From NCBI GenBank assembly GCA_963969365.1, contig OZ017763.1:930001-994000 (forward strand): a DNA stretch of 64,000 nucleotides, written 5' to 3'. Of the stretch, positions 246-63,885 are shown piece by piece (positions within the stretch are counted from its first letter, which is position 1; each line of letters starts with the position of its first letter). Under the pieces are notes generated by a model, which made no database searches, was not told the DNA's origin, and saw only the letters and a list, made by a program, of their open reading frames with translations. The position numbers were made by a program, and so were the translations under genes. The DNA is from Asterochloris sp. CNOR1 (Eukaryota > Chlorophyta > Trebouxiophyceae > Trebouxiales > Trebouxiaceae).

Positions 246-1147
246 GGGAGATGTCTGCAGAGAGGGCTTATTAGGTGGACACCAGCCCAGAGGTAAGATC
301 CTAAATGCATAAGACACCACTTGCCTCGTGCAGAAGCTACCTTGAAGGCCTGCAGGGCAAAAGTATCTCACCTGCTGTGCTCATCACAGGACATAAGAGG
401 CTGTGGCAGGTAGAGTGCATGTTTCCATGGTGCTTTGTGGCTGCAGGCACCAGGATCGCTTCCAATTGCACCCCTGGGCTGAGGCCTTCTTCCGAGGTGA
501 GATTGTGCTGTCTTGCTGACCCTCCCCACCTGTCTGCCTCATGCAGGAGTGTGTACTGGTCCAAAGACACCTCTGCCTGTGGTGTTGCCTGCTTGAGGTG
601 CAGAGCATGCTGTGGTGCAGAGCACCTTTGGAATCAGCCCCCCTCACTAGCAGTGTGTCCTGAGGATTTGTCCAGTGGTATGCCTGACATCTTTGAGCAG
701 GTCAAGCAGCACCTGGGCTTGTACTGCATGATTGATTGTCAGTTGAGTGAGTTCTGTGATGAGCTGCACCTCTTTCTGGTGTCAGATGCCTGTGAGTCCT
801 GGTGATATGGCACCTAAGGCCGTGGTGTTTGTGAGTGCGTACTGGATCTAGCTTGAAATGGCCTGTTGAGGGCTGTGGATGAAGTGTCTCCTGGAATCTA
901 AATCTGAGTCTTTTGTGGTGACTAGGTCGGGAGGCAAATATCAGGTGCATTCCTGTTAAGCTTGCGCTCAAGTGTCGGAGGGGTAAGCAGCATACCTGTT
1001 CGCAACACACGCGCCTGCAAACATATCATGCGGGCATGAAGGACAGCTGTCTCAGGCACCTGATTGCCTGTCTGCTCATCATGTCTCAAGTAGCTGATCA
1101 GGGCCTGACCACTCCTGTGTTTCATGTCACCTGCAGCCCCTGTCAAC
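246..1147. other. No confident gene
   Basis: This stretch holds a 501-base open frame on the plus strand (305-805), but it resembles no protein family I know and is interrupted by good splice-like sites. A short segment near 447-497 bounded by an AG acceptor and a GTGAG donor reads plausibly as coding, as does 547-597. They do not join into one convincing frame. They may be remnants or exons of a gene I cannot assemble, or 5' untranslated exons of the next gene. I make no functional claim. Confidence 0.4.
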
Positions 1148-2154: not shown

Positions 2155-2817
2155 TGCTTTTCATCACGGCAATATGACTCCATGCAAATGCTTTGCGGTC
2201 ATAATCAAACACAAAACAGGTCTCATGAACCTGCACACAATGAAGCAGCTGCCTGGAAGGGTCGCTGGGGGCTGGCCACAAAGTTTTCGAGAGGCATCCT
2301 ATCCATTCAGTCTACTTGAGCCGATCAGAGTCTGGCTCTGGCATGCAAGCTGAAGCAGTACCACAAAAAAAAGCTTAGGGATGTTCCCAGGAATGTAGGC
2401 TGTGGCACAGCATGTAAGCGCAGGCCTTATCCCCTGCTCCTGACAAGTGAGTTGCGGGGTGTCACATGGCCTGTGATATGGTGACCTAAAAGCCACGAAC
2501 TCTGGATGCAAGTGGTTAAGGCTTGCTTTCAGCTAAATGAGGCTTCCTGCTCTGGTGGCTAGGATGGCATGCTTGATGTCTGCTGAAAGTTTTCATGGCT
2601 CAGCAAGCAGTCTCATGACTTTCAGTACCCACTGGCATGCTGCAGTGTCATGTTTCAGCACTGCGCTAAGCCCACTCTGATGCCGATCTGTAACATTCTC
2701 TGAACTCACAAGATCTGTCTCTCCCATACTTTGAAGACACATTGCTCTACACTTGATGTCCTAGAGAGTCTTCAAGTCGTATTCAATTCTACAGCGCATG
2801 TGTTCACAGGACATGGG
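2155..2817. other. Intergenic, convergent 3' ends
   Basis: Between two convergent genes. It contains TGTAA motifs (2413-2417 and near 2690) usable by the plus-strand gene, and a short A-run near 2366. I see no coding exon or RNA gene here. Confidence 0.6.
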
Positions 2818-6253: not shown

Positions 6254-9200
6254 ATGCCAGGCATCGACCTGAGCCTGAGCAGGACCCTCAAAACTGAGCA
6301 GCCAGCATACCAGGATGCCGAACTCAAGGTGGGCTCCTGCAGTGTCATCACCCTTTGTGAATGCTCTGCATGTCACCAGAGGTACCCGTTACATACGAAG
6401 CCAAGGCAGCCATGATGGAAAGAGCTGACCATTCATGATGAACGCTGCAGTGCAGAAAGGTGGTTTACAAGCAGCGCATCAGGCTCAAGGAGTTCTTTGT
6501 GGACTTTGACAAGGTGCGGCAGCGGCAGGCCACTTGTACATCTGTGCTCAACAGCTTCCAGCTGATTGTTGAATGCATGAAGTACTTGTCCCCCCAAATC
6601 TGACATAGCTAGGCAGCAAGTGCTTGCACCTCTGGCCCTGCCGCCCTGCATTGCAGCGGTGACTGCATTGCAGTGGTCACTGCATTGCAGCCGGTATAGC
6701 TTGTCATTTTCATTGCTGCCTGCCTGCTCAAATCTGCAGCACACCTGTGTCCCTGCCGGCCACTGCCACAAGATTGCAGTCACTCCTTCAGGTGGTGACT
6801 GCCTGCTGCAGCTGCGATCAGGGTTCATCTTCGAGAACCAGTTCCTCTCGGGCCTGAGCATGGCTGGGCTGGACAAGCACCTGCGGCCGCAGCACCTCCA
6901 AGCGTGAGTTCCAATATGCTGCCGCCAAGGCCCCCATTCTGGCAGCAGCTGTGCCTGGCCTGCTGCGTTCTCACTTCCCTTGAAGTGTTCCAGTGCTTCT
7001 GCCCCCCTGCGGCCTCTGCCAGAGTGTGCTTAGCCCACAGCTTGTGCGGCATCCCTGCGAGTGGCTGTGTGAGCTGTGCGGCTTGCGTCCCTGCTGGTTC
7101 GCTTCATTTGCACATTGCCTGGCACTACACAGCAATGACTGTTCTCTGCTTGGGTGCCGCAGCATGCACCCATGCTGCGCTGCTAGACAACTCTGATGTC
7201 ACCTGCCCCTCTTCTGCTATGACGAGCACGAGCAGCTGGGGCACTGTTGCCTGCGGTCATGCTGAGCACCTGCAGCACGATTGCAGGTTGCGCCTACACA
7301 TTGTAAGCGATTTTTCTGCTCTGTGTGTCAGTTGTTGACCCGACAAGAGCCCGCCTTGCAGGCCTGCATGCTGTTCTGGTGCTGCAGCTGGCAGAGGCCC
7401 TTGCCTCTGGCATGTGTATCTGATTGTCACTTCTTGCCCCTGCCACAGGCGTGCTCAGACCACTTGACGCCTTCCTCGCTGTTCCTAGCAACTTTGACAC
7501 TTTGTGGTGCAGGCTGGCAGATGCATACAAGACGGGGGAAACAGACCGGTTGGCCAAGGTGGACTACCGCCGCTTCTGCCAGGACATGGACACGGGTGAG
7601 GCATACAAACATCATACTCAATGTAAGGACACAATTAGGCAGTGCCTCTGCGGCGAAGTGCCTGCTGCATGGACGGGAGTTGAGGGCTGCCAAGGCAGCA
7701 CAGGGCTGCACGCTTGTGGCTCTGCCAGGCAACATGGCAACAGGTGAGGGTGCATTTCATGGACTCTGGTCAAGACTTGCTCAAGCATTGCCCAAGAGTA
7801 AAATGCCGCTGGGTGGCCTAGAGGAGAGCATGGCAGCGAGGGGGACGGGCTTGGAAGTTAGGGGTGTGCTGTGCCAGGACACATACACGTGGAAAGCATG
7901 GGCAGGCCCTCTGCTGAGGCCGCTGCCAGGCGTTGAGGCGGGAGTGTGGCAGGCAGTGTTGCCTGCCTGTCCCTCTGCCATGACACGCAAACAGTGTGGG
8001 AGGTTTGCAACCAGCCCATGCAGCAGCTCCAGATGCAGCCCAATGTCCCAGCAGCAGCAGCAACGTGTGAGTGGCCTTCAGCTCACGCGGTGGTCAGCCA
8101 TATGCAGCCCATCCATGCAGCAGCCTTGATCAGCTGAGCCACAGACGACAGCACGCCTGTGCTCAGCGCGGGGCTAAGCAGGGCCACTGGCTGAGCTCTG
8201 ACACCAAGCACGCAAAGGAAACCGGTCACGTCGGCCAGGCAGGGTGTGGCCTTCCCATCTACACTTGTGAGTGGTGGCTGTTGCCAATCCTCTTTGGCTA
8301 CGCTGAACACAGAGTGGGAGCTGGCAAGCGTCATCCAGACATTTCGACACGTCTGAGCTGTGTTGCGAGCCTTACACAATAATCCCTGTGTGGCTGCAGT
8401 GTTCACAGAGCGGGAGCTGGAGAAGGATCCCCAGAGGGAGGTGGCAGATGAACCTTATGAGCTGCTGGACAAGACAAGGTGAGCCAAAAGGGAACTGAGA
8501 CAATAGGGCAGAGGGAGATGAGATGATAGGACAAGGTGAGCCGAAAGGGGATTGAGAACCCTGCGGCAGCATCAGCTGATCTGTGAGGGCCTCGGTGGAG
8601 CATGTGCGCATTTAAGGGCAGTCGGTGAGCAGGCATCGCCAAACAGCTGTAGGTTTTCTCAGGAGCAGGCGGTATCTGTGTGGCAGAGGCTGCCTTGTTC
8701 CTTGAACAGAGCAAGTTGCTGACACAGTAACACTGTTCAGCAGCTAGCTGTTCTGCTCCTTCCATGCCAAGACATGGTGTTGCTTGTGAGACTGATGCCA
8801 AGAGTCTGGTTCACCCTGCAGGTACGACTTCAGCAGCAAGCAGCTCGCGTCGGACAAGGAGGTGCAGCTGGAGCATGTTATGGACAAACTTAGGCGGGAA
8901 TGCAAGATCAAGGGCATCATGGTGAGTTGGGCGGTTGATTTGCCTGCTTGAAGGTTGACAAGTCAGGCAGGCACTTGGAACAGCAAATATGTGGACATAC
9001 GTGACCGCCGTGTGCAAGGGCCAGCAGCTCAGATTGTGGTGGGACTGCAAGATCAAGGGCGTATGGATGCAACAATGTGTGCTTGAAGGTGGGCAGGTGT
9101 AGCAGCAGGGCAGACGGTGCGTCAGCTTGTACTGGTGACCACCACGCATGAGTGCCAGCAGCTCAGGCTTGATCTGGACTGCAAACTCAGGGGCATCATG

Positions 9201-10031: not shown

Positions 10032-10121
10032 TCCTGAGGACCTCTGATGTAACACCAGCTTTAAGTCATGTGACAATACGGTGGAGGGTTCGCTTGCAGT
10101 ACGAGGCGGGTGGGAATGTGG
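10032..10121. terminator. Compact convergent 3' region
   Basis: Ninety bases separate the EF-hand stop codon (plus) from the lipoate ligase stop codon (minus). The plus-strand gene has a chlorophyte-type TGTAA signal at 10048-10052. The two mature transcripts probably overlap at their 3' ends. Confidence 0.4.
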
Positions 10122-13100
10122 TCAGAGGTCAACAACCCTGGTGCTCTTGAGGTAGTTTCCTCTCAAAGCATCCTCTGCCTCATCTAGGTCTGCAGCCTGC
10201 ATCGCAGACGCCAGGGACAGTCAGCATTGCTGTGTGGCATGGCACCCCAGCACTGGGCTGTGTTAAGCAGCTGGCACTCATGCAGGGTACAGAGTGCTGC
10301 CGTGATGCGGCGCCTGCCAGTGGTGAGCTGCAACATGACACTCAGAGAGCAGCTCGTTGCGAGATAGCCCACCTGGACTTCAAAGCCCTGCGCTTTCAAA
10401 GCTGCAGGCACCTGGGCCAGCAGCCCTTCACGGCTGGGAGCAAAGTCTTGAAGACGGCATACAAACTCCAGATGCAGCCGGCCCTGCGGTGGAACAAGCT
10501 TGTGCTGTTGGCAGATGTGCAGGAAGCCACATCAGGCATGGATGAGAGGAAGCCAACTGCAGGCACAGGCACCAGACCACGCTGGCACCTTCCTGTTCTG
10601 TGGCCCAGACTGCAGCAACTGTGGGCACAGCCGCCAATCACACCTGGCAGCAGCATGGCACCTGTCAGGGTGCTTGAACAGCAGCATTCTGGCAGACTGC
10701 ACAGGACAGCCCCAATGCCCATCCAGTCAGGTCTGGGGTGACTGCCACCCATCGAGATGCAATGGCCGCAGCCAAGATTAAGTACGACAGCAACACTGAT
10801 GCCAACAGCAACCTCATAAGTTGTGCCCAATCCTGGAAACACACAGGCAGGCCTGGAGCACACCTGACGGTAGTCTGGCACCCTGTCGGGGTGCTTGAGT
10901 AGCAGCATGTTAGCGTCCTCATAGTCCCACAGCAGGGAGGTGTGGTGTAGGAAGCGCTGCTTGGTGATGGCCTGGGCATTGCCGCCAAACTTCAGCTGGC
11001 CGAAGCAGTAGTCTGCAGGCACCAGCAGGAGGGCTTATCGGGAAGACTTGGCTGCTTGATGATAGCCTGGGCATTGCCAACGAGCTGGTTAAAGCAGCAG
11101 CAGGCGACTTCTCAGGGAAGACTGCTTGCAAGAATGATGATTACACAGGGACTGGCTGAAGCCTGCACGATCAATAATTGTGCAGGCACAGGTCCAAGCC
11201 TGCAAGAACAATGATGATTCAGAGATAGGCTGAAGCGGGGCGGCAAAGCAGTGGGTCATCAAAAGCGCATCAAGCAGCAATGCCAGATGCAGTGTCATGC
11301 AAGCGCTAGCTTGACAAGAACTACCGGCAGGGGCAAGAGCATCGTGTGGAACGAGCTCAGCCTGTGGATGGTGATGGTGCTGCCAGCCCTGCTGAGTACA
11401 GATGGCAGCATGCTGCCAGAGGCACAGCTTATGGCTGCCGTTGCTGCTGAAGCCAGGAGACCTATGACTGCAGGGGGGTGAGGCAGATGCAGGCTGGCTG
11501 CCTGCCGCACTGTGGGCTGTCACCAGAGGCACCCAGTAGCCCCTGTCTCATGAGATGGAGCATCATGCAAAAGGCTCAGAAACCCTGCTCCAAATAGCCG
11601 GCTTCAATGTAGCACACAGCTGTAGGCGCACCATGGGGGCGCACCATTCTCGCGCAGGAGAAAGTCTCCAAACGGGGAGAACACGGGGCGGTAAAAGTCC
11701 TTGCTCCACCTCATGAGAGGGCGGGGGAAGCACTCAACCCCCTCTGGCAGCTCCCTGTAGGCACAGGGCAGCTAGGGTCAATTGCCCAGCCTGCGTTTGG
11801 TGCGGAAGTCCCCAATTCGGTGGGCAGCTTACTGCAAGCATGGCAGGCACGGTGCATCTCAGGGGTGGCAGGGGTAGTGCATTCCTTGAGGCGCTCCCCT
11901 GCAGCCTCCAGGCAGCACTCTGAGGCGGAGTGACACATGCAAATGCGTCCAGGGACTGGGCCAGGCGCCTTCACTGCACTTTCTTCGGCAGCCCCCTGCA
12001 GATTCAGCCGCAGGGAGACGCTTGAGGCCCCCTGCTTGTCAGTTCCCTCAGAACCCAGCACTCTGCAGGCAGGGCATCATGCAGCTGCATGTCAGGACTG
12101 CCTGTGTTTGCCTGCAATCTGTTACAGGGGGGGTCCCGCCGGCTGCTGACTCCTGACGCTGTACAAGTAAGACACTTGCGTCCACTGATAGCCCCCTGCA
12201 AGCAGGGCATAATGCAGCTGCATGTGTGATCCGCCTGCATCTTGCTGTGCCGACTGCCGATTCCGGATGCCGTCCAGGTATGCAACCCACAAGCTCAATT
12301 GTCTGCTGCGTCATCACCACTCCATGCCAAGTAGTAGCTGCAGCACGTGTTGAAGCGTCCACAGGCGTCAGGGCCATTGCTGCTCACGTGTGGCAGGCCC
12401 TAGCATCGAAGCAGTACAGGAAGCTCACTAGGTGCCTTCAGCATCTCCCTGTTAGCTGCCACTGCAGTACAGAAAGAACACACAAACATCCCCACACCGC
12501 ACGCTGCTTGATGGGTAAAGGTTGCCATGGACAGTCTCACATCCGGATTGCTTGCTGAGACTCATACGTGAAGTGGTGTGACGAGCATGGCACACAATAT
12601 GTTGCTGTCTGCATTAACCACTGTGAACTGGAAGACAAGCTCAGTGACAGCCTCTTGTCACCCGTCACTGCAGCAGGCAGGCCATTTCCTCAAGAAGCAG
12701 CTTCTGTGCCTGGTGGTGAGCAAGGCGTTGCACCTAGAGTGCATGATGAGCGTAGCGAACAGGGTGTTGCTGTCCGTTACGACTGTGCCGCCACCGCTGA
12801 AGCGCTTGATGACCTGCACCCCTGCCTGCTTGGCCTGCTCTGTGTGGATCAGCTGCTCTGGCTTCCTGCATGCAGAACTCAGCAGTAGGCCCAGACTGGA
12901 AGGAGTCAAAGTAATTCTGCTTGGACATTGTAAGGGTGTCAATCGCTTGAGCTTTCTGCATGCGGCCACAGCAGGGTGCGCCCTGCTGAGCAGCAGCCCT
13001 GTCTGCAAACATAGCAGCCAAGAGGCAACATGCTGTGCATTTGAGGAGAGCATGATCGTGGCACGACAAGAGCAGGTGGCTGCTCTAGGTGCCCACAGGC

Positions 13101-48324: not shown

Positions 48325-51300
48325 TCAAGGGGAAGCTACAGTTGTTGGGCGTCCCTGTGAGCGATAGGCATCCACAAAGAAAAACGTCTTGCACTGTCCC
48401 TCGCTGTCGGCCGCAGGTGGCCTGGAGCACATGTACACATAGCGACCTACACGAAAGGAGCCAGGACTCAAGCACTCGGCAGAGCAGACATAGCTCGCAG
48501 GTATGCAGTCCAGGGTGCAAGAAGCTGGGGCGGTGTTCTGGTCTGAAGGGCAGCTGTACCCACCCTTATTAGGGCCCTGCTTAGTGGTGCGCTTCATTTT
48601 GCAGGGCTCCCCATGCTGGCACAGAGGTGGCTTCATTCTGGCCTGAATTGCCTGCCATGCCTCTGCAGCGTCCGTCCCTTGTGGCGATGCTTGACGAGCT
48701 GTGGGTGAAGCATGAGCCACGGTGGGTGACGTTGCGGCGTCCTGCTGTAAGCTGGCTGCCAAAGGGCTGCCGCCTTGCTGCACGGGGTCAACATCTGCAT
48801 GTCCCGGCTGCTGGATTCCTCCAGTCCCATCCTCAACATCTCTGCTGGGTGCCCGCTGGAGAAATGTTGTCAGGGTGGCCTGCCTGGCCTGCTTAGCCGG
48901 CACAGCTCTTTGCCGGCTGCCCGCCTCAGGGCCGCTGCCTCGTTTCTGAGCGCTGTGAGAACCTGCACAGGGATGCGGGACAATCCAGTTTGGGGCTGCC
49001 TTGTGCATTCAGGGCATAAACTGGATGAGCGCCATGCCATGGCTGCCAGCAGGGCTCACAGACCTGACCTGCCGGGGCCTGCGCCGGCGCCATCTTGCGC
49101 CGCTGCCTCAGTGCCAGCCTCGCGCGGCCCCCTGATGCTACCAGCAGAGGCCAGAGCGGTCGGCCTGCTGCCCAAGTCTGAGCTCTTGCTGCCAAGGTTT
49201 GGAGCCCAGATGCCACCCTCAGCACCTTGTGCTGGCTGAGTATCAGCACCATCCTTGTGGTCTGCATGAGCCTGCAAGCTTTCCTGCTGGCCGCCGGACT
49301 TGGCTGGCGCCCTGGTACTGGCAGCAGCATGCAGGGCTGCCTGCCGAGCACGCTGGGCTGCCTGGGCATCATGCTCAGCAATCATCTCATCCACGCTGGG
49401 CCTGGGCGGCGTCTCGCTGCCACTGAGGCCTGGTGGACTGGGGCTGCGGGCGCGCTTCCTGCCTGGTGGGGCTGTCGGCCTGGGCTTAAACCACTGGCTG
49501 AGGTTTTGCTGATTGCCCCCTGCAGTGCACAGGGGTGCAGCGTACTGGAAATGCTGTAGCTTCGCAGGCTTGACCTGCGGGCACGATTGTTGCTGGAACA
49601 GCTGCTGTGTCGGGCTTGAACTGCAGGCTGCATGGACGCCTGTCTTCAAAGCTGGCGTCAGCCCCATCTTGCAGGATGGGCGACCTGCTCAGCACAGCTA
49701 CAATCCCTTTGACAACCTGTTGAGCTAATGTGCACTGGCATGCCAGTGACTTGAAGACTTGACCTTGCAGCATGACTGAGCTGCTGAGCGCGACGGCGAC
49801 ATGGGTTGTGGGCAGCTTAGCACCCAAGCTGGGCTATGCTGCACAGTTGCAGACCAATGACTGCACCTTGGGCAGGCAGGGCAACCTGCCAAGCAAACAT
49901 CCCACCTTGTAGCACGGAGGAGCTGCTGAGCGCAGGGGCTACACGGCCTCGGGGAAGCTCCGCTGTGAACGTGAGGTCAGCCCAGACGGGGCAGTGGTCG
50001 CTGCCCTCGCATTCTGGCCAGATGTCAGCACCTGTCAGCTTGTCCAGCACCGTCTCCTGCAGCAGAGAAGGGCACACCTCAGTTGCAGAAGCACTGCACT
50101 GTCAGCCAGATCAGCTGGTCCAGCACAGCCGCCACCAGCAGATGGCTGTGACGTCAAGGCGGCATGCCCGCTCCACACTGCAGTCTGCTGGTTGCATGGT
50201 CAGTCAGCACCCGTCTGCAGCGTTTGCAGCCTCGTCGCCTGCAGCACACCAGTGCAGGCTTGCATGAAGCCTTCAAACGCAGGTCGCCTCAGTGGCCGCT
50301 GCCTTCTCACGCAGGCCAGATGTCTGCACCTGCCAACTCTATGACATTGCCTCCTGCAGCAGTGCAGAGGCATTCAGCAGGCAGCCAGAACTCCAATGAT
50401 GCACCTAGGCAGGGTGGAGCCCTTACACTCAGCTGACATGTCGGCGCCTGGCAGCTTGTGACCTGCACTTGTTCCATCTCATTGCTGTCAACGCAGTGGG
50501 CTCGATCACACTTTAGGGCCAAGCACCCAGCCCTGTCAGTGCTCTGATGATTCTGCCTGTTGCTGCGGCCTGCTCTACAGCTGGCTGGCTGGCTGGGCCC
50601 GCTTCAGCAGTAGCAGAGGCATCAGCCAAGCCAAATCAAATATCATGTATTGAGCAGGTGCCCTGCACAGGAATGAATGAAGACCAGCAAATGCCTGCAG
50701 TGCAGTCCACGGGCACATGGCACAAGTAGGCATGCCTGTCTGCTTGCATCAGCTCCTTCAGCGTCAGCCATTCCATCAGCTGCCAGGATGAAGTCAACCC
50801 TGGAGCCATAGTTGGTGCGCCTTGCTCCGCTCTTGACATCCCAGACTGTGTAGGCCTTGGCCCTGCGGTCAGAACAGGGACCGCCTGCAGTCAGATGTAG
50901 GCCCAGCCCAGACCACAGCCTTGCAGACAGCATACAGTGGTCTGACGAGACTCCAGCCTAGACCACAGCCTTGCAGACAGCACACAGTGCATGCTCGGGC
51001 CTTGCTGAAGATGCCCATTAGCACTGTCTGGTCATCCAGCTGACAGGCAAGTACAGGGCAGAAGGCTGCGCTGCTGACATGCGGACCATGCCTTCCAGCA
51101 GCCACCAAGGTGCGGGAGCTGCGCAGACTCCTGGAGACTAGGGTTTGCAACGCATCGATCTGAGCGTGTACTCAACCCTGTTGCAATCACTAAGGTGCCA
51201 GGGCGGGGCAGGCTGAAGGCTGGGTCAGAAACTGCTGGCATTGCCCGACATGAAGCGAACCGGATGTGCAGCTCAGGTGAGTTGCCACTCACCTGGTGGG

Positions 51301-54261
51301 ATGGAACTTGCGGAAACAGTCCACCATGGGGCCTCCGTTGCTCTGCAGCATGCCCTGCAGCCACGCTCTGCAGGGTGCACGGGATGGCATGAGTGATGGG
51401 CAGACTGTCGTAAACCCTGCATGAGCGCACAGCGCTGGCTTGAGGCGATTTTGCCTGAGCCTGTGCTGTCCGCTGCAGCAACTCAAGCAGGCCACTGATG
51501 GCATTCAGCCATGCACTGTGCAGACTTGGACTTTGTCGACAGCAGTCCAGGTGCAGCAACTGCCACCTAGGCCCACGCGCCAAGCAGGAATGTGGGCAGG
51601 TCTTTTGACATGCAATGGCAACATCAGAATGTGTGCTCGCAAAGTGTGGGGAGCCACTCTGATGGAGCTGCAAAGCGCTGCCTTTGCATCCACTGATGAA
51701 AGCAACATCTTGCAGGCAAGGCTTGTGATGGCAGGGTGACTGTTGAGGAAAGGGTTGCCACAGCATTGAGAGAGGCTCATCCTGCAGGCCGTAAGCCATG
51801 GAGACACGACAAGCGTATACAGTGATAGTCTGTGGCGCCTGACTCTGTGACAATGAGCTGGCTTGCTTTACCTGTCAGGCCTGTTGGTGAGAAAAGCCGC
51901 CTGCACATGTGGCGACGCCTCGCAAAAGTCGCAGTGGTCCATGACTCCAGCGGTAATGTTGAGGTCGCCCACCAGCACAACAGCCCTTCCAGCCGCTCTT
52001 AGGGCCTCGATGCGCCGCTGCAGCACCTGCATGCCTGGGTCCGCTGAAGTCATGCAGGTTCCTGAATTGCTCACCAACAGCGCTGCGTGAGCAGCTACCT
52101 TGTAGCTGTTTTCAGGGCCTTCATGTGTTGCTGCAGCGCCTGCACGTACTGTTATACATCTCCAGTTGTAGATCGCGACCATAGCCCTGCACCATTGCCC
52201 CTGCCAGCATGATTCAAAGCCCCCACACCACAGCCCTGCCAGGTGCTCTCAGGGCTTCGATGCATCGCTGCAGCACCTGCACACCGCTCAAGATGATGTC
52301 AATACACAAAACCTGTGCACACTGAGTTGCTGACCTCACAGCGTCAAGGCGCCATGCAGCAGCGAGTCGCTGCACAAGACCTGCGGGGCAGGCAGCGCAA
52401 CAGCAGCACCGCAGTGCTGGCTGCCCTTAGGCTCTGGGGGTCAGGGAAGGAGCTGTGAGCAGCACACATTGCCTGGTGAATGCTGTGCAGGGGCAGGCAG
52501 TCCAGGCCATGCCAGCCGCGGTCACTGCCCTGCCGCTGTGCTGCAGCAAAGCAGACGCTGCGGCATGCTCTGCATCTGCCGCACTGAGGCAGCTCACCCA
52601 GGCCTCAACTGCCTGCAACCGACCCCAAGACTGAACGCAGCACTGCTGCCAGAGTGCCCTGGTCACAGGCAGAGGTTGGTCGCTGCCAGGCCAAGAGCTG
52701 CAGTCACCAATGTCTGTGATTGGCTGCAGTATCATGTGTCATTGACAAAGTCATTGTCCATCACTTGATAGCCCGCTAAGCTGCAACGGTGACAGCCAGC
52801 CTTTTTTCAGACTGAGGCCACAGGGCATGCTGGCATAGTGGCAGCAAAAATGCAGCTTGCCTGCATGCTACAGACCACAGCGCCTGCAGAAGGCACACCT
52901 GATACAGCGCCAGCTTGTAGGCAAATCGCTCGTTGTCCGCATTGGTGACGGCAGGGCCGTACAGGTTGATCACTACACAGGGCCCAATGTCCAGCAGGAC
53001 TGCCCTGCCCTGGTTGTCGATTAGCTCCAGCATGTCCCTCTCAAACCTGCACAGGACATCCTTGTCGATGCAGGTGTTGCTGCGTCACATCATGCAGCGG
53101 CTGAACTGCAAGACATCAGTCAGCATGGAACTGACTGCATTCTCTGGCAGGCAGCCACTGGTGCAGGTCAGGAGTTTTGACAGATGCAGCAGTTGTGGGC
53201 AGCCCAGATCTCCTGGCTGCTGAGGCTAGCCAGACTTGCTTCCCCATTGACACTCCCACGAGAAGGGTGCCTGCGTGTTGCAATGTGCCTTTGCGAGGGC
53301 CATATGACAGATCATGTTGCACAGGCTGACCTGCTCCAGAACTCCAAGTCATTGTCCGGAAAGCAAATGCGATCATTGCTGCTGCCAGGGTGCCGCACTG
53401 CCGGCAAGGGCCTGGTGCCTGCAGAGAGTGACCTGCAGATTTAGCTTCTCTCCATGTCTTACAGCAGGGCCGAAAGGGTAAAGAGGCAGCCAGACAGGAC
53501 TGTGTTTCTGCAGGTGGGCCCTGCAAGCAATCCTGGGCTGGCAGATGCTGAAGGCATCTTTTGCAGTTCCCATCCCCCAACCCAGCACATGCAGGGCAAT
53601 GCACTGTGCCTCTGCGCATGCACGCTGCTGATCATAGGAGGACACGAAGTCGCCCTGTCTCCTGTCCAGGTGGGCTTCCTGATGCCAAACCATTCCTACA
53701 CCCCGCTTGCCCGCTCTGCCTGTGGCTCCCCAGTGGCAAGGGGCACATGCCCCTGCAGCTTGCCTGCAAGGCCATCTTCAGCCGCGACAGGGGCCACAGC
53801 CTCTAGCCTCCAGTATGTTGCCACGCCGCTGTACGCCATGCGATGTGACGTGTTGAGACTGAAGCATGAGTCCCTGCACTCAGCAGTGGGCTGCAGTGAC
53901 AACTCTGGCACTGCCGGTCATGTGACATCAAGTTGAGATGCCCCAAGGTCCAGCGTTGATGTTGGCCAGCGCAGCTATCATTCATGTACCAAAGCAGGTT
54001 CACCATCCAGGGCAGAGCGCCAGCTCCTGCAGGATGGCTCTATCTGTCTTTGAGATTTTGGTTTCTTGGACGCACACAAGGTCTGCAGCACGACGGTCAG
54101 GGGGATATTTGATCTTGTTGCAGAGTAGCAGCACATAGGCAAGCCTGTGGCATAAGCATGCCTGCATGAAGCTTGGTCAGTAAATTCTGCAGGCCTCCAA
54201 ACTTCCGGCTGCAGGCCCTTATGGAGTTCACGTTGAAGGTCAGAATTCTGAGCGTTGGCAT
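48325..54261 (-). CDS. APE2: APE2-type AP endonuclease / 3'-5' exonuclease
   Basis: Exonuclease III-family nuclease acting on abasic sites and 3' blocks; the C-terminal GRF zinc finger identifies the APE2 branch. Catalytic landmarks in order: LRILTFNVNSIR (Asn), DLVCVQETKISK (metal-binding Glu), GYSGVATYW, CVVINLYGPAVTNAD (Tyr), VVLVGDLNITAG (Asp/Asn), VDCFRKFHP, TNYGSRVDFIL, and GADIWPECEGSDHCPVWADL (Asp-His). A long low-complexity linker carries a PIP-box-like QQNLSQWFKP (about 49480-49516) and a second candidate QATLTTFL (near 48860-48885). The GRF finger is CQHGEPCKMKRTTKQGPNKG joined across an intron to RYVYMCSRPP...CKTFFFVDAY. The start ATG at 54261 (MPTLRIL) fits the family; an upstream in-frame ATG exists at 54375. 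Exon 1 appears to end at a GC donor. Several introns contain exon-edge duplicates. Confidence 0.93.
50907..50990. repeat. 48-bp tandem repeat in an APE2 intron
   Basis: Near-identical copies at 50907-50942 and 50955-50990, each containing AGACCACAGCCTTGCAGACA and an ACAGTG end. It lies just upstream of the exon that encodes the AYTVWDVKSG region. Confidence 0.92.
51970..52284. repeat. Exon edge of the GDLNITAG exon duplicated in an APE2 intron
   Basis: 51970-52033 (ACCAGCACAACAGCCCTTCC, then AGGGCCTCGATGCGCCGCTG and CAGCACCTGC) is matched by 52221-52284 (CACACCACAGCCCTGCCAGG, then AGGGCTTCGATGCATCGCTG and CAGCACCTGC). The spacing is about 251 bp, and the upstream-strand exon part encodes RRIEALRAAGRAVV. 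Confidence 0.9.
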
Positions 54262-55348: not shown

Positions 55349-58300
55349 TCACATGTCCCCCTGGTATTTGCGGTTGACTGAACTGGGGTTCACCCCATAG
55401 CCCATGTCCACATACTCCTGTCTCAGCTTCCTACAAACAGCAAGGCGATGTGAGGCTGTATGCTTTTTACTGATGGAGAAGAGGTGCATGCTGTCTGGTC
55501 GACAACTCTTGCAGCAGCTGCTGCCACCATCCCCAGCAGAGCAAACAGGGAATCAATCCAGACTGTTTCCAGAGCTGCAGGCGGCGCAGCAGTGGGGACC
55601 AGCCGAACCTAGCAGCAGCTCTGCTAGGAAGCTTGTGCTGTGGACATGAGGTGCTGCAGTGCAGGATGCCGCCCAAAGGAAGTCTCAGGCGGGTCCACCT
55701 TGACGCATCCCCACTAGGCTGCCATCATAGCTATTGTGTCTGTGTGGCTGGGTCAGAAAGGTCTCGTCTGGGTCACAGCTAGGCAGTGCAACAAGCAGCA
55801 CCACATGCACAGCAGCCCACCTGTAGGCGATCTGGGGGAGGTCAGCCTTAACGCTGATCTCGCGTGGCAGCAGCTCTGGGCGCAGCGTCTCTACCATGGC
55901 CTTGTCCTCACTCAGGATCCTGCAGAGGCACCATCTGAGGTGAGTGCATGAGGCGGTGGAAGCACCAGTCTCAGCTTTGCTTGGAGTTGTACAGACACAA
56001 AGTGTGCAACTGACTGATACAAAGTCTTGTCCCAACTCATGATCCTGCAGCAAAGCGAATCACTTGACAGGTGTGCTGACTGCCAGGCTCAGAGAGCAGC
56101 AATCTGCCTCTGGCACAGGACACTGCAGCCGAGGCCAAGCTTATGTAGATGAAGCCTCACTCAAAGTGGCGAAGCAAGGTGTGACGGCTGTCCACCAAGT
56201 GATGGTCATGTATGGCCATGCGCACCATGCCATCCACAGCACCAAATCTGAGGCTGCCCAGCTTGTCAGCCACCAGCTGCTTCTTTGACAAGGGCGTCAT
56301 GCAGGTTCAGCATTGCCTCAAGTTTAGCCACAGCGCTTCAGCAGCAGGGCTCATGTGATGATGGCCATGTGTTGAGCCTTGCTGTCTGCCGCGTGTGATC
56401 TGTCCCCAGCATGGCACATCACAGCCGTCATAACCCGCCCACAGCAGGCACGCAGCACCAGCCCCACAAGGTGGTCCCCATGCCCAAAAGGTATCTCGTG
56501 GCTCACTTGATGATGGCATGCACCCCATCATGTCCCAGAGCGCCATCTTGTGCTGACTGCTCAGCATGTAAGCCACCAGGACCCTGACAACAGCCACCAT
56601 GCAGTGCTGGCATCACTCCTCAGCCCTCAGCCACACCATGCTTCCGCCAACACCCTTACGATGCAGAGCAGCAGGGCTCACTTGATCATGGCCTTGCGTG
56701 CCATGCCATCCCACACCGCCATGTTGAAGATGCCCAGCTTGTCAGCCCCCAGCTTCCTGACAAGAGCAAAGCGGTTCACAGTGCGCCCCTCGCTGATGGG
56801 AACTGTGTTGACGAAGGTGGTGAAGCTGAGGCCGGCTCCAAGGGTGAACGTGATGACCGAAGTGCTGGGGAGCAGGGCGCGGGCTGTGACCTCCACAATG
56901 GGTACCTGCAGCAGCAGCAACTGACAATGGAAGGATGCCATGGTGCTGGAGCCCAGTCTGAGTGTATGGGACCCAAGGTGTGATGACCACAGGCAACACC
57001 TGCAGGCAGCCTGACAGGGGTTGTGGGAGAACTCAGAACACCAGTTAAGGTGACCACCAAGGTGCTTGGCAGTATGGCAGAGCAGCCACGATGAGCATCT
57101 GCAAACAGAAAACTCAGTTTGCCCTCAACCTGGTGAAAATGCCAAGCGAAGCTGATTTTGATGTGTTGTCGCTTGCTGCCCTGCACCCAGCAAACCACTT
57201 ATGATGTGATAGAGGTGCTGAGAAGAGGAGGACAAGAAAATCGCGGCAACATGTTGAAAGCCAATTCAGCTTTGTAGGTAGATGGTGCTCGCACAAAGAG
57301 CAAGAAGCAGACAGCTGTGTCACACAAACATAGCCTGAGATGACTCCTGCACCTCTCTGGCAGGAGTGTTATGCAGCCTGAATGCAGACCTCACCCTGAA
57401 CCTGTGACAGGTGCAGCCTGGCTGCTCAACCCACCTGGGAGAACTCCCACAGCTTGTTGACGGGCTTGTTGTGCAGCCTGAAGGAAGCCTTGACCCCAAA
57501 AGCATCGTGGCTGCAGGTCATGTCCTTGATCTGGGGAGCCTCCTCGTTCCCAAACGAGTCTGAGTGCAGGTAGTGGATGTGGGCCATGTCGATGGCATTC
57601 TCAAACACGCTCCAGTGGTTGCAGGCAAACTCGATGTCACCTGGACGGCAAGAACAACACGACATCAAGCCATCTGCAGCAGGTGTGAGCAGAAAGGGGA
57701 GGAGGCTCCAAGCAGAATGAAAGAGCGTCAAAGGTGTGGCATGCATATGGTAGAAGTCAGCTGTCTCAAAGGCATTCCTAGACACGCGACAGCAGTCACA
57801 AGCAAACCAGAAGAGTGATCTGCCAACAGGATCCTGGAGGCAGGTAGCTAATGAAGGCATGCTGACGGCCTCATCAAGCTCGCAAGTGGTTGCAGACGAA
57901 CCCAAGGTTCTGCCTTGAAAGACAGAGGAGGCTACAGTCTCCGATGTATGCATGCTGCACAAAAGCATGGGTGCGCCCAGCCTCATGTAGATGTTCACAA
58001 GTATGCTCAAAAAGTGCCAGCCCTGAGGAGTGCTGCTGCGGTGATGATCGGGCAGGCAGCGGCCCATTGTAACATGCTCAGACTGTGCTGCTGGACAGGG
58101 GTACTGCTGAGAGAGGGCCCACTACAACAGGCAGAGTCCACACCGGCTGATTGCCAGCATCATGTACAGCACTTGCTTGCATCCTGAGCTGCCCACCATA
58201 GACTGGCCTCCCAGTGGGAAAGTTGAGCGTAAGCATGCTCAGCAAGTCAATCATCTGTTTGGCTCCAGACAGAGACCCAACCAGGCAGAGCGACTGACCA

Positions 58301-61300
58301 TAGACTGGCCTCCAGCTGGGGTCATCCAGCTCTGGCACATATGGGATGGGCGGGCGCTCATCTGCTGGCAGGCTCTTGCTGCCCCAGAAGATGTACACAA
58401 ACCCTCCCTGCAGGGAAACTGTTGTCAAACAGCCCTGAGCAGAGTTGCAAAGTACAGGCTCGGCCATACTCAATAGGAAGACCTCTCTCGGCATCATTGC
58501 CAACAGCTTAGGTCTACACAAGGTGTGGAAGTTGCCCTGCGGACTGCAATGCCAGACAAATTATTCTACAAGGGGCAGCCTGGTACAAAGGAGACCACCA
58601 CAACTGCCAGAACCCCTCACCTCCTGTTTGGAGGGCCACCAGCCTCCCAGGCACTGCACTTTCCATGCGACAAGCAGCTGATTCCCCTGTGAATCCCCAT
58701 TCACAACCCTCACCTTCTCCTCCACTGGGTAGTGGTCCACCAGCGCCTTCTCAGGCCACTCCCCAATGCCCTCGGCTGCCGGCACACTGCGCAGGACGCC
58801 GTCCTCATCAAAGGCCCACCCATGGTAGGGGCACACCACGCACTCATGGCCATTGACGGTGTTGACCTTGCCCAGGGACAGCGGGGCCCCCCTGTGGGGG
58901 CAGATGTCATTCAGGCAGGCTACCTGCAGGCCAAGGCACACGTGCGATTCTGCAGGGAGCCCACAGGACTCTAGCAAGGGTTGAGCCGTCGGCCTGACTG
59001 CAGATGCAGGGCAGACACAGGAAGTGCCACGGAGGGGGCAGTTCACAGGCTATGTTTAAGGAATGAGGTGCATCGCAGCAGGAGCACCTGTATTTCAGAA
59101 AGCCATCTGCAGCAGCGGGGAGTGATGCTTGCAGACTGAGCAGCTGCTCAGATTATGACCTGAGCAGGCACAGGCAAAAGTGGGTAATCCAGGATGCTGC
59201 AGGCTATTGACAGCAAGAACGGTCTTCAGTAGCAGCAGGGGCCCACAGGTGATCTGCGGGCGTATATAGTCAGTAAGCAGCATACCTTGATACATGCAGC
59301 GTTTGTGACTACAACAGCAGCAACCCTTGTCAGTACCCACAGCATTGCCCACCTTGCCATCGCTCTTTCTGAACAGCACCAACTTCTCCCCGCACAGCTC
59401 CACAGACACAGGCTTCCCCTCCTTGACCTGCTCGCTGATAGCTCCTGCATACCTGCAGCAGGGCCTGGCCTTGTGTAGGCTCATAGTGTTATAGGACTGA
59501 AGTGATCAGCGAGATGGTGAGTGAACAAGTCTGTTTAGAGCAGAGGCTGTGTATGACAAAGCTGGGCACAGGAAGCTGCCTGTGAGGAAAGGAGGCTGCC
59601 TATACCAAGTGCAGGGCAATGGCAACATTCCACGGCTGAACAGCACACAACAACACCTGACAGAGCAGATCAACACAGGCACAAGACACAGGGTCTCAGC
59701 TATGCAGCACACAAGCTACACGGAGCGAGCTGCGAACACTCAGGTGAACACTTACCAGAAGTTGCGCAGGTAGCTGCGTCGCCCCTGTAGCTCCTTCATG
59801 CGGTGGGCCAGCTGGTTGGCATCAGGGTCCAGTTCGCCTGCAGCAGCACAATCATGGTATGTGAAGGGAACGCAGTCCAGCCTCAGCCTTGAAAATATGC
59901 CCTGCACAGACAGACAGCTGATTGAAGGAGGTCAAAGGGTGGCATGACAGGCAGGCAGCAGGCCAATAGCTCACCTGCAATGCAGTTGTATTGCTGATTG
60001 CAAAGCAAAGAAGGCTTAAGTTGCATAACCAAGCCCCAGGCAAACACAAACCAAGCCCCAGGCAAACACAGGTGGGTAGATGAGTGGACTTGGCAACCAA
60101 ACTATTGGGCAACACGTATGCTTGCACCAGCTGCGCTAGGACATCTTGGCCTGCCTTCACAAGTGTACTGAAGCATGCACGAACCCCAGCACTCATGCCA
60201 TTTACTGGGAGCTATGCCACCACTGCCCCAGACGCTGCCATCTCAAGACTTTCTCTGCAGCCCTGCCCACCAGGCTTGAGGCCCTTGTCCTGCCTGCGAC
60301 GCTCAATGGTCTTTGCATCCACAGGCTGTGCCAGGGGCACCCCTTCCTTTGGGCGCAGTGGCTTGGTGACAGGTGAGTCCACACGAGGCGGCGCCATCAC
60401 AATGTTGGTGGCCTCCTCAACCACCTTGCGGCTGGGGCCTGACCTGCCGCCAAACTCCGGGGAGCGCCCTGCACGCAGACCATAAAACAGCAACTTACGA
60501 ACAGGTCCTCTATAAGGTGTCAATGGCATCTGTCCTGCTGACTGTCACCAGAGCCCAGGGCTCTGCAGCGCAGAGCACCAAGCCTCAGCATCACAGAACC
60601 CACAGATGAGAGGCCTACAGATGAGAAAGTCGTGCCCAGAGAAGACAGGACCAGTGCCAGCACAAGAACACCTGACAGTCGGAGCTGAAGGTTTCATGAC
60701 TGCAAGGAGTCAGCTGCTGACCAAAGGCAGCCCTTGAAGACAGATACCATGGGCAGCTCACCCCTGTTAGCTCACTACACACTGCACCCAGCATGAACAA
60801 CTCCCAACCCTGCGGTCTGAGGCGCCAGCTGGACAGGCAGCCCTGTGAAAACAGACGCCATGTAGCAAAACTACAGCCCCTGCCCCCAACAGCTTGCAAA
60901 ACACAGCCCATGTCAAGGCACTCACGGGAGGGAGGGGCCAGCTGCACTGGCGGTCCCGTGAAGGCAGATGAAGTGGGCAGCTGCACTCCTGCACCGACTG
61001 CGGCGGCCTTGCGTGCGGGCGTCAGCAGGTTGGTGCGCAGCAGGAACTGCTTGAACACTTGCAGCCGTAGAGGCAGCATCTTTTTGGGCAGGGTGGCCAT
61101 GCGGCGCAGGGCCTTCTCCTGCAGAGGGAACGAAGGGTTAGTGCGTGTGGTGTATTGGGGCAGTGCAGTGCAGCTCACTTGCGACGCATGGCCTTCTTTT
61201 GCAGGAGGGATGAAGGCTTAGTGTGTGTTATGGCTTGGAGCAGTGCAGTGCAGCTGACTCGCCATACGCCACAGCGCATTTTCCTGCAGATTACTTGCAG

Positions 61301-63885
61301 GGCAGGCGTAGGGCAGCAGCAGCGATTGGCCACAGACACACCAGAGCTGTCCTGCGGGCCCACACATCTGCAGAGCATCAGGTCACAGTCTACAGTCAGC
61401 ACTGCAGCTGCATGCTGCAGTTTCTCACAAAAGACTCAAACCTGCTACCCTACAGGTGGCCCAGGGGACCACCTTAGCGCTACGACTTGCTGCTGATCGG
61501 TCAAGTCATTCTAGTACCGGCTGTGCTTGTCCCAATACCAGTGTCTTCCCTGCGCAATCAGCTGATGCCTTGACTTTGTTGCGCGCTGCTCTGCACCCCA
61601 GGGCGAGCAATTCCATGCACCATGTGGAGACATAGAACATTGAGGCCCCATGCACTATGTACAATCACAGGAAGCTCACTGCATCCACCTCATCTGTGTA
61701 TTCGTTGAGGACAGAGTAGATAGCAGCAACTCGCGCACTGGGGTTGATTGACCCTGGGGCACACACAGGGCATGAGCTCATTCTCCACTGTGAGGACTGC
61801 AGCATGCAGCTGCAGTACTGACAAAGGAGGATGAGCTAGTGCCCTACGTGTGCCCCAGGGTGAGCAATGCCATGCACCATGTGGAGACATAGACCATTAG
61901 GGCCCAATGTACTATGTACACTATCGCAACAGAAAGCTCACCGCATCCACCTCATCTGTGTATCTGTTGAGGACAGAGTAGACTGCTGCTGCCTCGATGA
62001 TGTAGAACAACATCCAGCTTCCCCTGCAAGAGCAATGACAGGTGTACTGAGACACCCATCTCAGTGACTAAAGACTGCAGAGCTGAAGACCATGAGCAGG
62101 GCTCTCGAGCTAGCCCTGCCCAGCAGCGTGGCGCATATTGGGGAGCAGACACACATCAGTGAGGCTGTGGGGGGTAGTCAGCTGCCAGAACGAGAAGCCT
62201 GCAGACCAGCAGGAGAGTGCCTGCAAACCTGCAGGGCAGGCGTACGAGGCACAGGGCAGGCCTTTCAGCCTGGGCTTCCTTTACTAGATTGCCAGCAAGA
62301 GATCCTGATGCAGCATTTGAATCCAGTTCCTGCAGCACGCCTTGGAGCAATGCATGCTGAACTGCCACTGCTGATGTCGGTGGCAGTTATTGTCTGGCAA
62401 ACAAGACCCTCTGCAGCAGAGGTGGCCTGCCAATGACTTGTCAACTTGTCGAGCCTCTGCAAGGTGCAGAAAACTGCAAAGCGCAGAACACGCTTCGCAG
62501 CAACTGGCCTGCGCTGTACCTATGCAGGCACCGCAGCAGCCCACGACAAGACAGGCAAATTAGGAGACAGTCTGGCGAGCTCACGTGACCTCCATGTGAA
62601 GGCCCCACGGCTGGCATGCACACAGACCCCATCAGAACAGGATGCAAGCTAACCAGCCAATACTGTGCGCAGACCACCACTGTAGGGACTTTCATGCAGG
62701 TGTCTCAAGACACACACAGCAGCCACAGATGAGACTCACAGGGCCGCAAGGTGGCCTGTCACAGACATGACTGCAATGCTGCAGCTCTGCTGGCCTGCCA
62801 GCGCACAGCGGATCTTGGAAAACTCCCTTCCAGCAGGCACACAGCACTCACAGGGCCACGACGTGGTCTCCCACGAAGAGGGGCGCAAAGCGATCCACCA
62901 CCTTGGGCAGCACCTCAGACACCTGATGGGCCCCCACCTCTCCCACAAGGGCGGCAAACTGCACGACAGGGCAGCAGCTGGTGGGTGCTGGACAGGTTGA
63001 CTTGTGCACGCGGCACTTGGGGTGCCTCTGCCCATCATGTCAGTGCACTGAGGACTGGCTTGTGCTTGGATTGTGGGCCGCTTCCTTTCTGATGTGGCAC
63101 AGTGCGTCGCACTGAGGGCGTTGGCCACGCAAGCAAGGCAGACACCCCTTAATGTGGTAGGTTGCAGCACTGAGGGATCCGTCCAAGCAGGTGCTGCCCA
63201 GGTCACATCAAATTTTGAAGGATTCTCCAGCGACGCGTGCAGCGACGCATGCAGCAGGCTGAAAATGCAGCCACAGCGTGTGGATTAAGAAGCATGGTTG
63301 CAGCAGTACAGAGGTACTGCCTGGCTGCTGTGGACCCGTTCTGAGACTACACCTAAGACGCCTCTTCAGCATGTGACAAGTCACCACAGCTGGTCACGCC
63401 CCCTGGCATGTAGCGCTGTTGCTGCCTCGCTTGCCATGCCAGTGGCATGGCAGCAGGCAGACGCACCTTGCTGGCGACATGAGCGCTCTCAAAGATGCCT
63501 GCTGCTCCCAGCCCCAGCAGAAAAGATCTCAACAGCGGCTCAAAGAAAGGACTGGGGTCCCCTTGACTGCCCTGCAATGAATCATGAGCACATTGGGTTG
63601 CTTTGTAGGCGGCCACAAAGCGTTTTGTGCATCACATCCAGTCTTGCTGAGTCAGCTGACAGGCACATACTGGGTAGCAAACAGCATTGGCTACAGCTGC
63701 AGCAGGTGCTGACATGGCAATCATAGGTGTCCCACCTTCCCACGACCCCTCTCCTCTGCTTTGAAGGCACTGATCCTACGTCTACCCCAGCTGGGCCTAC
63801 TGAGCCTCGCAGGGATGTGCCTGGCTGCCTGCAGTGGAGCTGCAATCGGCCTTGTGGGCTGCATGCAATGCCCGGCCGGAAGCAT
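55349..63885 (-). CDS. Rieske [2Fe-2S] non-heme iron oxygenase with N-terminal membrane extension (14 exons, 648 aa)
   Basis: Exons in coding order: 63885-63736, 63571-63467, 62958-62852, 62023-61942, 61118-60926, 60468-60271, 59837-59756, 59452-59353, 58923-58714, 58407-58299, 57640-57435, 56905-56682, 55919-55821, 55430-55349; all 13 junctions keep frame. Exon 1 encodes a basic plastid-type transit peptide. Residues about 51-140 are hydrophobic or amphipathic with a membrane helix (SWMLFYIIEAAAVYSVL). A basic/proline-rich linker leads to RSYLRNFWYAGAIS, the usual start of the oxygenase. The Rieske centre is CPHRG...CPYHGW. The mononuclear iron site is FENAIDMAHIHYLHSD. The C-terminus ends NRKYQGDM, without the CxxC seen in PAO/TIC55/PTC52, so it is a different branch. 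Substrate unknown; a pigment or other chloroplast ring hydroxylation is an inference. Confidence 0.92.
56190..56765. repeat. Exon-12 end repeated three times in an oxygenase intron
   Basis: The exon edge at 56676-56765 (CTCACTTGATCATGGCCTTG, GCCATGCCATCC, TGCCCAGCTTGTCAGCC) has decayed relatives at about 56500-56575 (CTCACTTGATGATGGCATGC) and 56195-56290 (GATGGTCATG..., GCCATCCACAG, TGCCCAGCTTGTCAGCC). A shorter echo lies at 56349-56372 (CTCATGTGATGATGGCCATG). Confidence 0.85.
57561..57812. repeat. Copy of the catalytic exon in the upstream intron (oxygenase)
   Basis: 57561-57637 is matched by 57734-57812. In the minus-strand frame the real exon encodes FACNHWSVFENAIDMAHIHY and the copy reads FACDCCRVSRNAFETADFYH. 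The spacing is about 173 bp. The copy has lost the iron-binding His/Asp pattern. Confidence 0.9.
58194..58322. repeat. Donor-edge duplicate after oxygenase exon 10
   Basis: CCATAGACTGGCCTCCCAG (58197 region) repeats CCATAGACTGGCCTCCAGC (58299 region), which is the exon end RPVYG and its donor on the minus strand. The spacing is 103 bp, and the copy keeps a GT donor. Confidence 0.9.
61090..61290. repeat. Three-fold repeat at the start of oxygenase exon 5
   Basis: Units with GGCCTTCTCCTGCAGAGGGA (about 61110), GGCCTTCTTTTGCAGGAGGG (about 61190) and GCATTTTCCTGCAG (about 61276) are each preceded by a CATGCGGCGCAGG-like or CATACGCCACAGC-like block and separated by GCAGTGCAGTGCAGCT motifs. Confidence 0.85.
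61590..61997. repeat. Duplicated exon 4 with flanks (oxygenase gene)
   Basis: 61590-61736 and 61843-61997 are related along about 150 bp: CCATGCACCATGTGGAGACA, ACTATGTACA, GAAAGCTCACCGCATCCACC (GGAAGCTCACTGC in the other), CTCATCTGTGTAT and TTGAGGACAGAGTAGA. The right copy contains the exon used in the model (VYSVLNRYTDEVDA). The left copy reads IYSVLNEYTDEVDA with a GT donor intact but no frame-compatible acceptor. Confidence 0.92.

Follow-up and report, generated by a model that had tools for sequence, protein, structure and literature searches.

The question raised by a 64-kb stretch of the genome of the green alga Asterochloris sp. CNOR1 is whether its introns have been assembled from pieces of their own neighbouring exons and, if so, whether the copies record the birth of introns or their growth. 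The stretch, here called the window, covers 64,000 nucleotides of GenBank contig OZ017763.1 (C18:930001-994000 in our numbering). An initial annotation of the window had described degraded copies of the adjoining exon ends, which we call echoes, in the introns of nine named genes, and had taken the introns to be built from such copies. We compared exon edges with their adjacent introns in the window and in further parts of the genome and found that the excess of exon-edge echoes is real and genome-wide. The reading that we prefer, to which we give a probability of about 0.7, is that short-range direct duplication takes place throughout the genome, that duplicated units spanning an exon–intron junction are tolerated and lengthen the intron, and that the spare exon edge then decays.

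Exon edges are echoed in the adjacent introns

The analysed set of 264 kb consisted of the window and 20 further 10-kb loci (L001-L020) drawn from 18 contigs of the genome (56.4 Mb, 21 contigs); loci L021-L027 were excluded from all counts. Each exon edge was compared by Smith–Waterman (SW) alignment with the adjacent 300 bp of intron, using a main threshold of SW >=32. Edges were admitted when the exon had a score of at least 8 and a length of at least 50 bp and the flank measured at least 320 bp, which gave 574 edges (278 donor, 296 acceptor), 141 of them in the window. A direct copy in the adjacent intron was detected for 72/574 edges (12.5%) overall and for 22/141 in the window. When the same edges were compared with 20 non-adjacent introns each, only 19 of 11,480 tests gave a match (0.17%; 3/2,820 in the window). 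Dinucleotide shuffles gave 0.13% overall, and the reverse-complemented edge matched in 1/574 cases overall and 0/141 in the window. At least one echo was present in 16 of the 21 sources, that is, the window and the 20 loci. Among six window genes supported by homology (Pfam or PDB), 10/77 edges were echoed versus 2 of 1,540 control tests. The genes concerned were MiaB (5/13 edges), Rieske (3/17) and LplA (2/7), and no echo at SW >=32 was detected in Bax1-I (0/15), the glutathionyl-hydroquinone reductase GHR (0/16) or DLH (0/9).

Matches of this kind could in principle be produced by chance, from a background rich in CTGCAG and CAG together with shared splice motifs. CTGCAG is the most frequent 6-mer, and the splice consensus obtained from the gene finder was CAG/GTGAG at the donor and CTGCAG/G at the acceptor (the slash marks the splice site). 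The low rates with non-adjacent introns and with shuffled sequence argue against this explanation, as does the masking of the 80 commonest 6-mers (32% of query bases), after which 18/574 edges still matched at a score of at least 26 versus 1/2,729 in the control. We regard chance or composition as a negligible explanation. In this respect the initial annotation held, since exon-edge matches exceeded those in dinucleotide-shuffled controls (12.5% versus 0.13%) and their excess outlived removal of the CTGCAG-rich background. Its list of nine genes was recovered in part. Echoes at SW >=32 were found in the EF-hand, LplA, bZIP, APE2-like and Rieske models, and also in the MiaB-like and amino-acid transporter models (Table 1); those of GST/GHR (28-30) and phytochelatin synthase (28) scored below the threshold, and the hydrolase had none at >=28.

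The echoes were concentrated at the very ends of exons. Among exons measuring 190 bp or more, 28/175 edges were echoed at SW >=32 and none of the 175 exon middles; at SW >=28 the counts were 37/175 and 1/175. Scored by distance from the edge (score >=30), the rate was 9.2% for the first 40 bp, 1.8% at 40-80 bp and 0.8% at 80-120 bp, and the successive segments lying more than 120 bp inward gave 0/246, 0/137 and 1/70. Since the echoes fade so rapidly inward from the edge, the copied unit nearly always spans the junction. Realignment of the echo edges retained 35/37 donors and 35/35 acceptors, and the splice dinucleotide lay inside the alignment in 25/35 donor and 28/35 acceptor echoes; the copies do usually include it, as had been claimed.

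In some algae introner elements, which belong to one dispersed family, are a mass source of intron sequence. The echo units studied here are unlike introners in that they do not match other introns (0.17%). Moreover, one 5.5-kb gene used as a DNA query against the whole genome found, within the limits of the tool, no match beyond its own position and its local copies. A dispersed repeat or introner family was therefore rejected, in agreement with the initial annotation.

Short-range direct repeats are in excess throughout the genome

An annotation-free test was made by counting ungapped self-matches with a score of at least 18 diagonal by diagonal. Per 100 diagonals, the window contained 11 matches at offsets of 15-50, 30 at 50-100, 35 at 100-200, 9 at 200-300, 4 at 300-400, 3 at 400-500 and 0.5 at 500-700, and none in five far samples of offsets at about 1,000, 3,000, 6,000, 10,000 and 20,000 (to 20,200). 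Scaled to 64 kb, the 20 loci gave 15, 26, 16, 10, 3, 3 and 1 in the same seven classes, followed by 1.4 at 1,000-1,200 and 0.2 at 3,000-3,200. Since far diagonals have the same composition, the excess of near duplicates is a true one and is found genome-wide. As to orientation, 227 direct matches (offset 20-700, unmerged) were counted versus 8 inverted ones (arms within 800 bp), with 2 matches in the inverted far control. An inverted or hairpin origin was therefore rejected as a general explanation.

Repeat pairs from adjoining diagonals were merged for the counts of class, density and offset modulo 3. The merged set comprised 104 exon–intron pairs (involving 62 exons), 103 noncoding pairs and 12 exon–exon pairs. 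Introns are not special in this respect: noncoding pairs were equally dense within defined introns (0.50/kb) and elsewhere (0.53/kb, counting unresolved parts of genes as well). Detected repeat arms were present in 69/226 introns overall and in 20/53 window introns, and they covered 7.2% of intron bases, so that to describe the introns as built from copies was too strong. The further proposal of the initial annotation, that frequent short tandem duplication is recorded in the introns, stood as far as the duplications are short, direct, genome-wide and of no family; strict tandem arrangement was demonstrated for five pairs only.

Two structures found along the way are recorded here. Identical 77-bp copies, 160 bp apart, open the window (positions 1-237) and are probably a recent duplication cut by the window edge. 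Locus L006 holds a perfect 137-bp inverted repeat (8128-8264 / 8793-8929) with an interior of 528 bp, possibly representing the ends of a DNA transposon.

Intron growth versus intron birth

Tandem duplication of an exon segment containing AGGT is a proposed route to intron gain (the Rogers model), and it had been put forward for the window. The model has in its favour that echoes often contain the splice dinucleotide, that the splice contexts are AG/GT-like and that single cases have been published (PMC4974935, PMC2891723). If an AGGT segment is duplicated at the birth of an intron, the surroundings of its donor and acceptor should align, whatever happens later inside the intron. The donor context of each intron was compared with the acceptor context of the same intron, both anchored at the splice sites. 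A score of 12 was reached by none of the 226 introns (control 0.09%), and with lower thresholds the counts equalled the control (17/226 versus 7.8% at >=8; 2/226 versus 1.1% at >=10). Intron birth by AGGT tandem duplication was accordingly rejected for the introns tested, and we consider the Rogers model very improbable as the source of the echoes. Growth of introns by duplication, which had been proposed alongside, received support: among introns of at least 150 bp, those with an edge echo had a median length of 520 bp (n=46) versus 338 bp for those without (n=138; p 7.5e-7). Because the birth signature is absent and echo-bearing introns are longer, intron growth is the better reading.

A proposed route from duplication to longer introns

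The process that we favour would run as follows. A genome-wide mutational process would give rise to direct duplications with offsets mostly of 40-400 bp. Those falling within coding sequence would be purged unless the frame is kept, and those within noncoding DNA would be neutral and then fade. Both the in-frame filter and contiguity were observed in few cases. A unit spanning one exon–intron junction would be tolerated if the outermost junction is the one used, leaving the mRNA unchanged and the intron longer; the junction would be retained because splicing at the outer site may restore the old mRNA. The spare exon edge and the spare splice site would become part of the intron and then decay. 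The genuine exon would be held by selection, and the exon–intron pair would therefore stay recognisable. Some later trimming of the copies by deletion or insertion would also be needed, since the arms are shorter than the offset. The most likely molecular cause is either the filling-in and joining of staggered breaks or slippage during replication.

Geometry, frame and age of the copies

Several observations weigh against this reading, and two of the rival explanations draw on them. Most of the exons are the output of an in-house gene finder, and the gene limits are imperfect. Longer introns offer more space for an echo, which may partly explain the difference in intron length. The decoy dinucleotides within the echoes were mostly retained (GT in 20/25, AG in 22/28), with no sign of purging. 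The remaining points concern the geometry of the copies, their reading frame and their age.

The offsets of exon–intron pairs extended from 90 to 368 bp (10th-90th percentile), larger than the unit size of 30-250 bp given in the initial annotation. Among the matches listed, 6 of 26 well-preserved rows, corresponding to five distinct pairs, were contiguous within 2 bp, and gaps of 12-494 bp separated the copies in the other 20. A strict head-to-tail origin is observed for these five pairs only, and the term tandem is thus borne out in part. We simulated intact head-to-tail copies that accumulate substitutions and small indels, and took the same measurements as for the real pairs; pairs with an offset below 60 were excluded both from this simulation of arm lengths and from the contiguity listing. 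The simulated median ratio of arm to offset was 0.68-0.90, depending on identity and class, versus 0.35-0.53 observed, and a simulation not divided by class gave a concordant result. The shortfall was common to noncoding and exon–intron pairs and to every identity class, even above 88% identity. Intact head-to-tail duplication was therefore rejected as a sufficient model: the arms are too short, which means either that many copies have since been shortened by larger deletions or insertions or that many were already spaced when they arose.

Copies spaced from the start would be expected if a nearby segment were inserted some distance off during break repair, by template switching or repair-mediated duplication, rather than in contiguous tandem. 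Such spaced copying would fit the short arms and the 20/26 gapped rows, of which the 125-bp gap within 61596-61989 is an example, and closely linked repair duplications of up to 619 bp are described by Pace et al. (PMC2671141). However, free copying should also bring exon middles into introns, and the middles were silent (0/175 versus 28/175 for edges). Copying from either strand predicts inverted pairs as well, and these were lacking (8 versus 227 direct, with 2 in the far control). Free spaced copying is disfavoured for these two reasons and we hold it to be unlikely. Junction-spanning duplication followed by trimming remains our preference.

Offsets modulo 3 (0/1/2) were distributed as 11/0/1 among exon–exon pairs, 41/30/33 among exon–intron pairs and 34/33/36 among noncoding pairs. 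The p value for the in-frame excess of exon–exon pairs (5e-5) is too small, since a single array in locus L010 contributes 3 of the 12. Exons seem to keep in-frame duplication products, and the echoes seem to be free of the frame. Mismatches at the three codon positions of the 104 exon–intron pairs amounted to 0.196, 0.191 and 0.259: all three positions drift in the echo, and at the third a synonymous contribution from the exon is added. The codon-position pattern and the offsets modulo 3 lack coding constraint, and echoes as alternative exons in general were not favoured.

Over all ages the ratio of exon–intron to noncoding pairs was 104:103 (1.0), versus 0.31-0.43 in a simulation that assumes random placement and frozen exons. 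The observed ratio is thus 2.3-3.3 times the simulated value, and counting each exon once brings it to 0.60. According to simulation, a constant rate would also have left about three times as many pairs of more than 90% identity as were observed, in both classes. The surplus of exon–intron pairs and the retention of most decoy GT and AG dinucleotides would suit a preference of breaks for exon–intron borders, or a retention of functional echoes as pseudo-exons or in splicing regulation. Against both stand the youngest pairs (K<=0.1), which show no junction excess (10:39 exon–intron to noncoding), and the absence of coding constraint in the echoes. We judge junction bias or functional retention to be improbable as the main explanation. 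The misfit of the ratio and of the age profile could come from noncoding decay faster than modelled, from a higher rate in the past or from junction bias, and the scarcity of young pairs hints at more frequent duplication in the past. Simulated rates ranged from about 2 (noncoding pairs) to about 5 (exon–intron pairs) duplications per kb per neutral substitution per site, a rough estimate since the simulation assumes intact tandem copies, which the arm lengths contradict.

Relation to known duplication systems

The kind of event considered here, short direct duplication including at exon/intron junctions, is already known. Eukaryote genomes contain an excess of near-range direct duplicates, described as close direct repeats or short paired duplications, that fades with age. 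To our knowledge, close direct repeats have not been analysed as exon-anchored echoes.

Small tandem duplications at staggered breaks have been attributed to fill-in by CST and Pol alpha-primase followed by end joining, and natural insertions in humans and plants have been ascribed to nearby nicks in opposite strands (PMC8355091). The copies described here resemble those duplications in being direct and short and in having no need of homology. They differ in that the published events were contiguous and followed induced breaks in human and mouse cells, whereas here there are fossil copies alone, most of them with arms that fall short of the offset. The vertebrate repair-mediated duplications described by Pace et al. 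2009 (PMC2671141) are likewise closely linked, often intronic and spaced, and a few of their donors take in an exon/intron junction. For human, 4 partial exon/intron donors among 824 were reported, and at least one copy was oppositely oriented; in our set, in contrast, 72/574 edges are echoed and nearly all copies are direct. In a potato gene an 83-bp tandem duplication lies inside an existing intron and left the gene structure unchanged (PMC4974935), and novel intron positions in Drosophila have been connected with tandem duplication near splice sites (PMC2891723). Both share with our cases a tandem duplication close to splice sites. Unlike AGGT intron gain, the introns tested here carry no birth signature, and the duplications lengthen existing introns. 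A full-text literature search found neither exon-edge echoes as a form of intron growth nor edge-echo density nor the use of a frozen exon as an intron-growth clock, an absence claimed for the searched scope only.

Gene models and echoes in the window

The gene finder was trained on 14 exons located via MiaB and GHR homology (the first of two settings used), with PDB 7mjz as anchor structure for MiaB and PDB 4uss for GHR. Purely self-trained gene finders were abandoned after their models had accumulated implausibly many exons. One model joins phytochelatin synthase with bZIP, and another joins part of APE2 with the end of the Rieske gene; the GHR model seemingly includes a false exon. A Pfam check covered 8 of the 15 window models (one trimmed) and two hand-cut pieces, with five models left out. 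Domain matches running across introns in the spliced products were obtained for Bax1-I, LplA-B_cat (E 2.4e-25), GST_C, DLH, UPF0004 with Radical_SAM and TRAM, Aa_trans (E 2.1e-24, in the amino-acid transporter gene), Phytochelatin, Rieske and VanA_C, the last two in the Rieske oxygenase gene. Matches to EF-hand (EF-hand_7, E 1.1e-4), Exo_endo_phos and bZIP were under the Pfam cut-offs. The Bax1-I score with the final gene model was 171 bits, versus 19 in an earlier search. Exons matching Chloroa_b-bind, a light-harvesting protein, were found 31 times in the genome, and plant-type genes are also present; both point to a green alga. No PDB entry matched a fragment of a light-harvesting protein at E <= 1e-20, and scanning viral contigs with a MiaB exon gave no hit.

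Table 1. Exon-edge echoes and related duplications in the window (HSP, high-scoring segment pair; TRF, Tandem Repeats Finder)
Span	Strand	Gene or model	Feature	Evidence
7575..7749	+	EF-hand gene	Donor edge 7575-7601 (exon 7513-7595), echo 7721-7749	SW 34
8296..8420	+	EF-hand gene	Acceptor edge 8392-8420 (exon 8400-8478), upstream echo 8296-8324	SW 34; HSP offset 96
8893..9066	+	EF-hand gene	Donor edge, exon 8822-8921, echo 9038-9066	SW 40; self-match offsets 145, 279
10639..10908	-	LplA-like lipoate ligase	Donor edge 10859-10908 (exon 10864-11012), echo 10639-10687	SW 60, alignment
10965..11100	-	LplA-like lipoate ligase	Acceptor edge, exon 10864-11012, upstream echo 11060-11100	SW 38
26391..26584	-	MiaB-like gene	Acceptor edge, exon 26225-26424 (aligned to PDB 7mjz), echo 26546-26584	SW 38
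26816..27155	-	MiaB-like gene	Donor edge, exon 27118-27328, echo 26816-26850	SW 36
27562..27741	-	MiaB-like gene	Donor edge 27687-27741 (exon 27693-27826), echo 27562-27615	SW 46, alignment
27801..27991	-	MiaB-like gene	Acceptor edge, exon 27693-27826, echo 27958-27991	SW 36
28450..28702	-	MiaB-like gene	Donor side, exon 28647-28802, self-matches at offsets 111, 129, 228	SW 34; HSPs
35926..36249	+	Amino-acid transporter	Donor edge, exon 35853-35970, echo 36200-36249; self-match offset 186	SW 64
40949..41158	+	Phytochelatin synthase	77-bp unit, 2.7 head-to-tail copies, adjoining an exon	TRF; HSP score 64; gap 2 bp
43928..44061	+	bZIP-region gene model	Donor edge, exon 43841-43939, echo 44044-44061	SW 32
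45966..46091	+	bZIP-region gene model	Donor edge, exon 45931-45999, echo 46056-46091	SW 48
49762..49946	-	APE2-like gene	Donor edge, exon 49906-50056, echo 49762-49804	SW 46
49992..50459	-	APE2-like gene	Acceptor side, exon 49906-50056, echo 50314-50361	SW 46; HSPs
51980..52281	-	APE2-like gene	Acceptor edge, exon 51872-52026, echo 52230-52281; self-match offset 113	SW 76
55901..56050	-	Rieske gene, 3' part	Acceptor edge, exon 55821-55919, echo 56026-56050	SW 38
57334..57482	-	Rieske oxygenase gene	Donor edge, exon 57435-57640, echo 57334-57382	SW 42, alignment
57594..57807	-	Rieske oxygenase gene	Acceptor side, exon 57435-57640, echo 57771-57807	SW 34
60819..60968	-	Rieske gene model	Donor edge, exon 60926-61118, echo 60819-60855	SW 42
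61096..61290	-	Rieske gene model	80-bp head-to-tail duplication 61100-61259 over acceptor of exon 60926-61118	TRF; gap 1 bp
61596..61989	-	Rieske gene model	Copies 61596-61727 / 61853-61989 over donor of predicted exon 61942-62023	SW 84

Several edges carry successive self-matches, an example being the acceptor side of the first APE2-like exon in Table 1 (49906-50056), where they occur at offsets of 76, 182, 298 and 416 (steps of 106-118 bp). The 77-bp array next to phytochelatin synthase sits outside the scored exons. In the 80-bp duplication of the Rieske model the alignment showed that the acceptor AG reads AA in the spare copy, and the same exon has an additional acceptor echo at 61261-61290 (SW 36). 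The two longer copies in this model, separated by the 125-bp gap mentioned above, are about 89% identical. A near-palindrome at 61751-61861 (two 53-bp arms, 5-bp loop, score 35) overlaps the stretch between them.

Some general features of the sequence were also recorded. A second phytochelatin synthase-like exon lies elsewhere in the genome (G000:C6:2660664-2660762). The 3' splice consensus is very strong: in the gene models the T, G and C of TGCAG reach 95-97%. The window has a GC content of 56.5% and an observed/expected CpG ratio of 0.35 (0.31-0.45 across the 21 sources), and TpG/CpA is elevated to 1.71 in the window. Low CpG together with raised TpG/CpA suggests cytosine methylation, past or present.

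Implications for intron evolution

An exon edge under selection that stands beside its own decaying copy provides a direct and datable record of one possible mechanism of intron growth. Searching for such echoes separates the growth of introns from their birth, and it amounts to a simple test that needs one genome and is applicable to any annotated eukaryote. Each echo also offers a natural experiment, with two competing splice sites placed about 90-370 bp from each other. More tentatively, and with odds that we put below even, intron length in this lineage may be governed chiefly by a continual supply of short-range duplications that span junctions; exon edges would then date the steps of growth, a single genome would suffice to follow them, and the age profile would hint at a rate about three times higher in the past.

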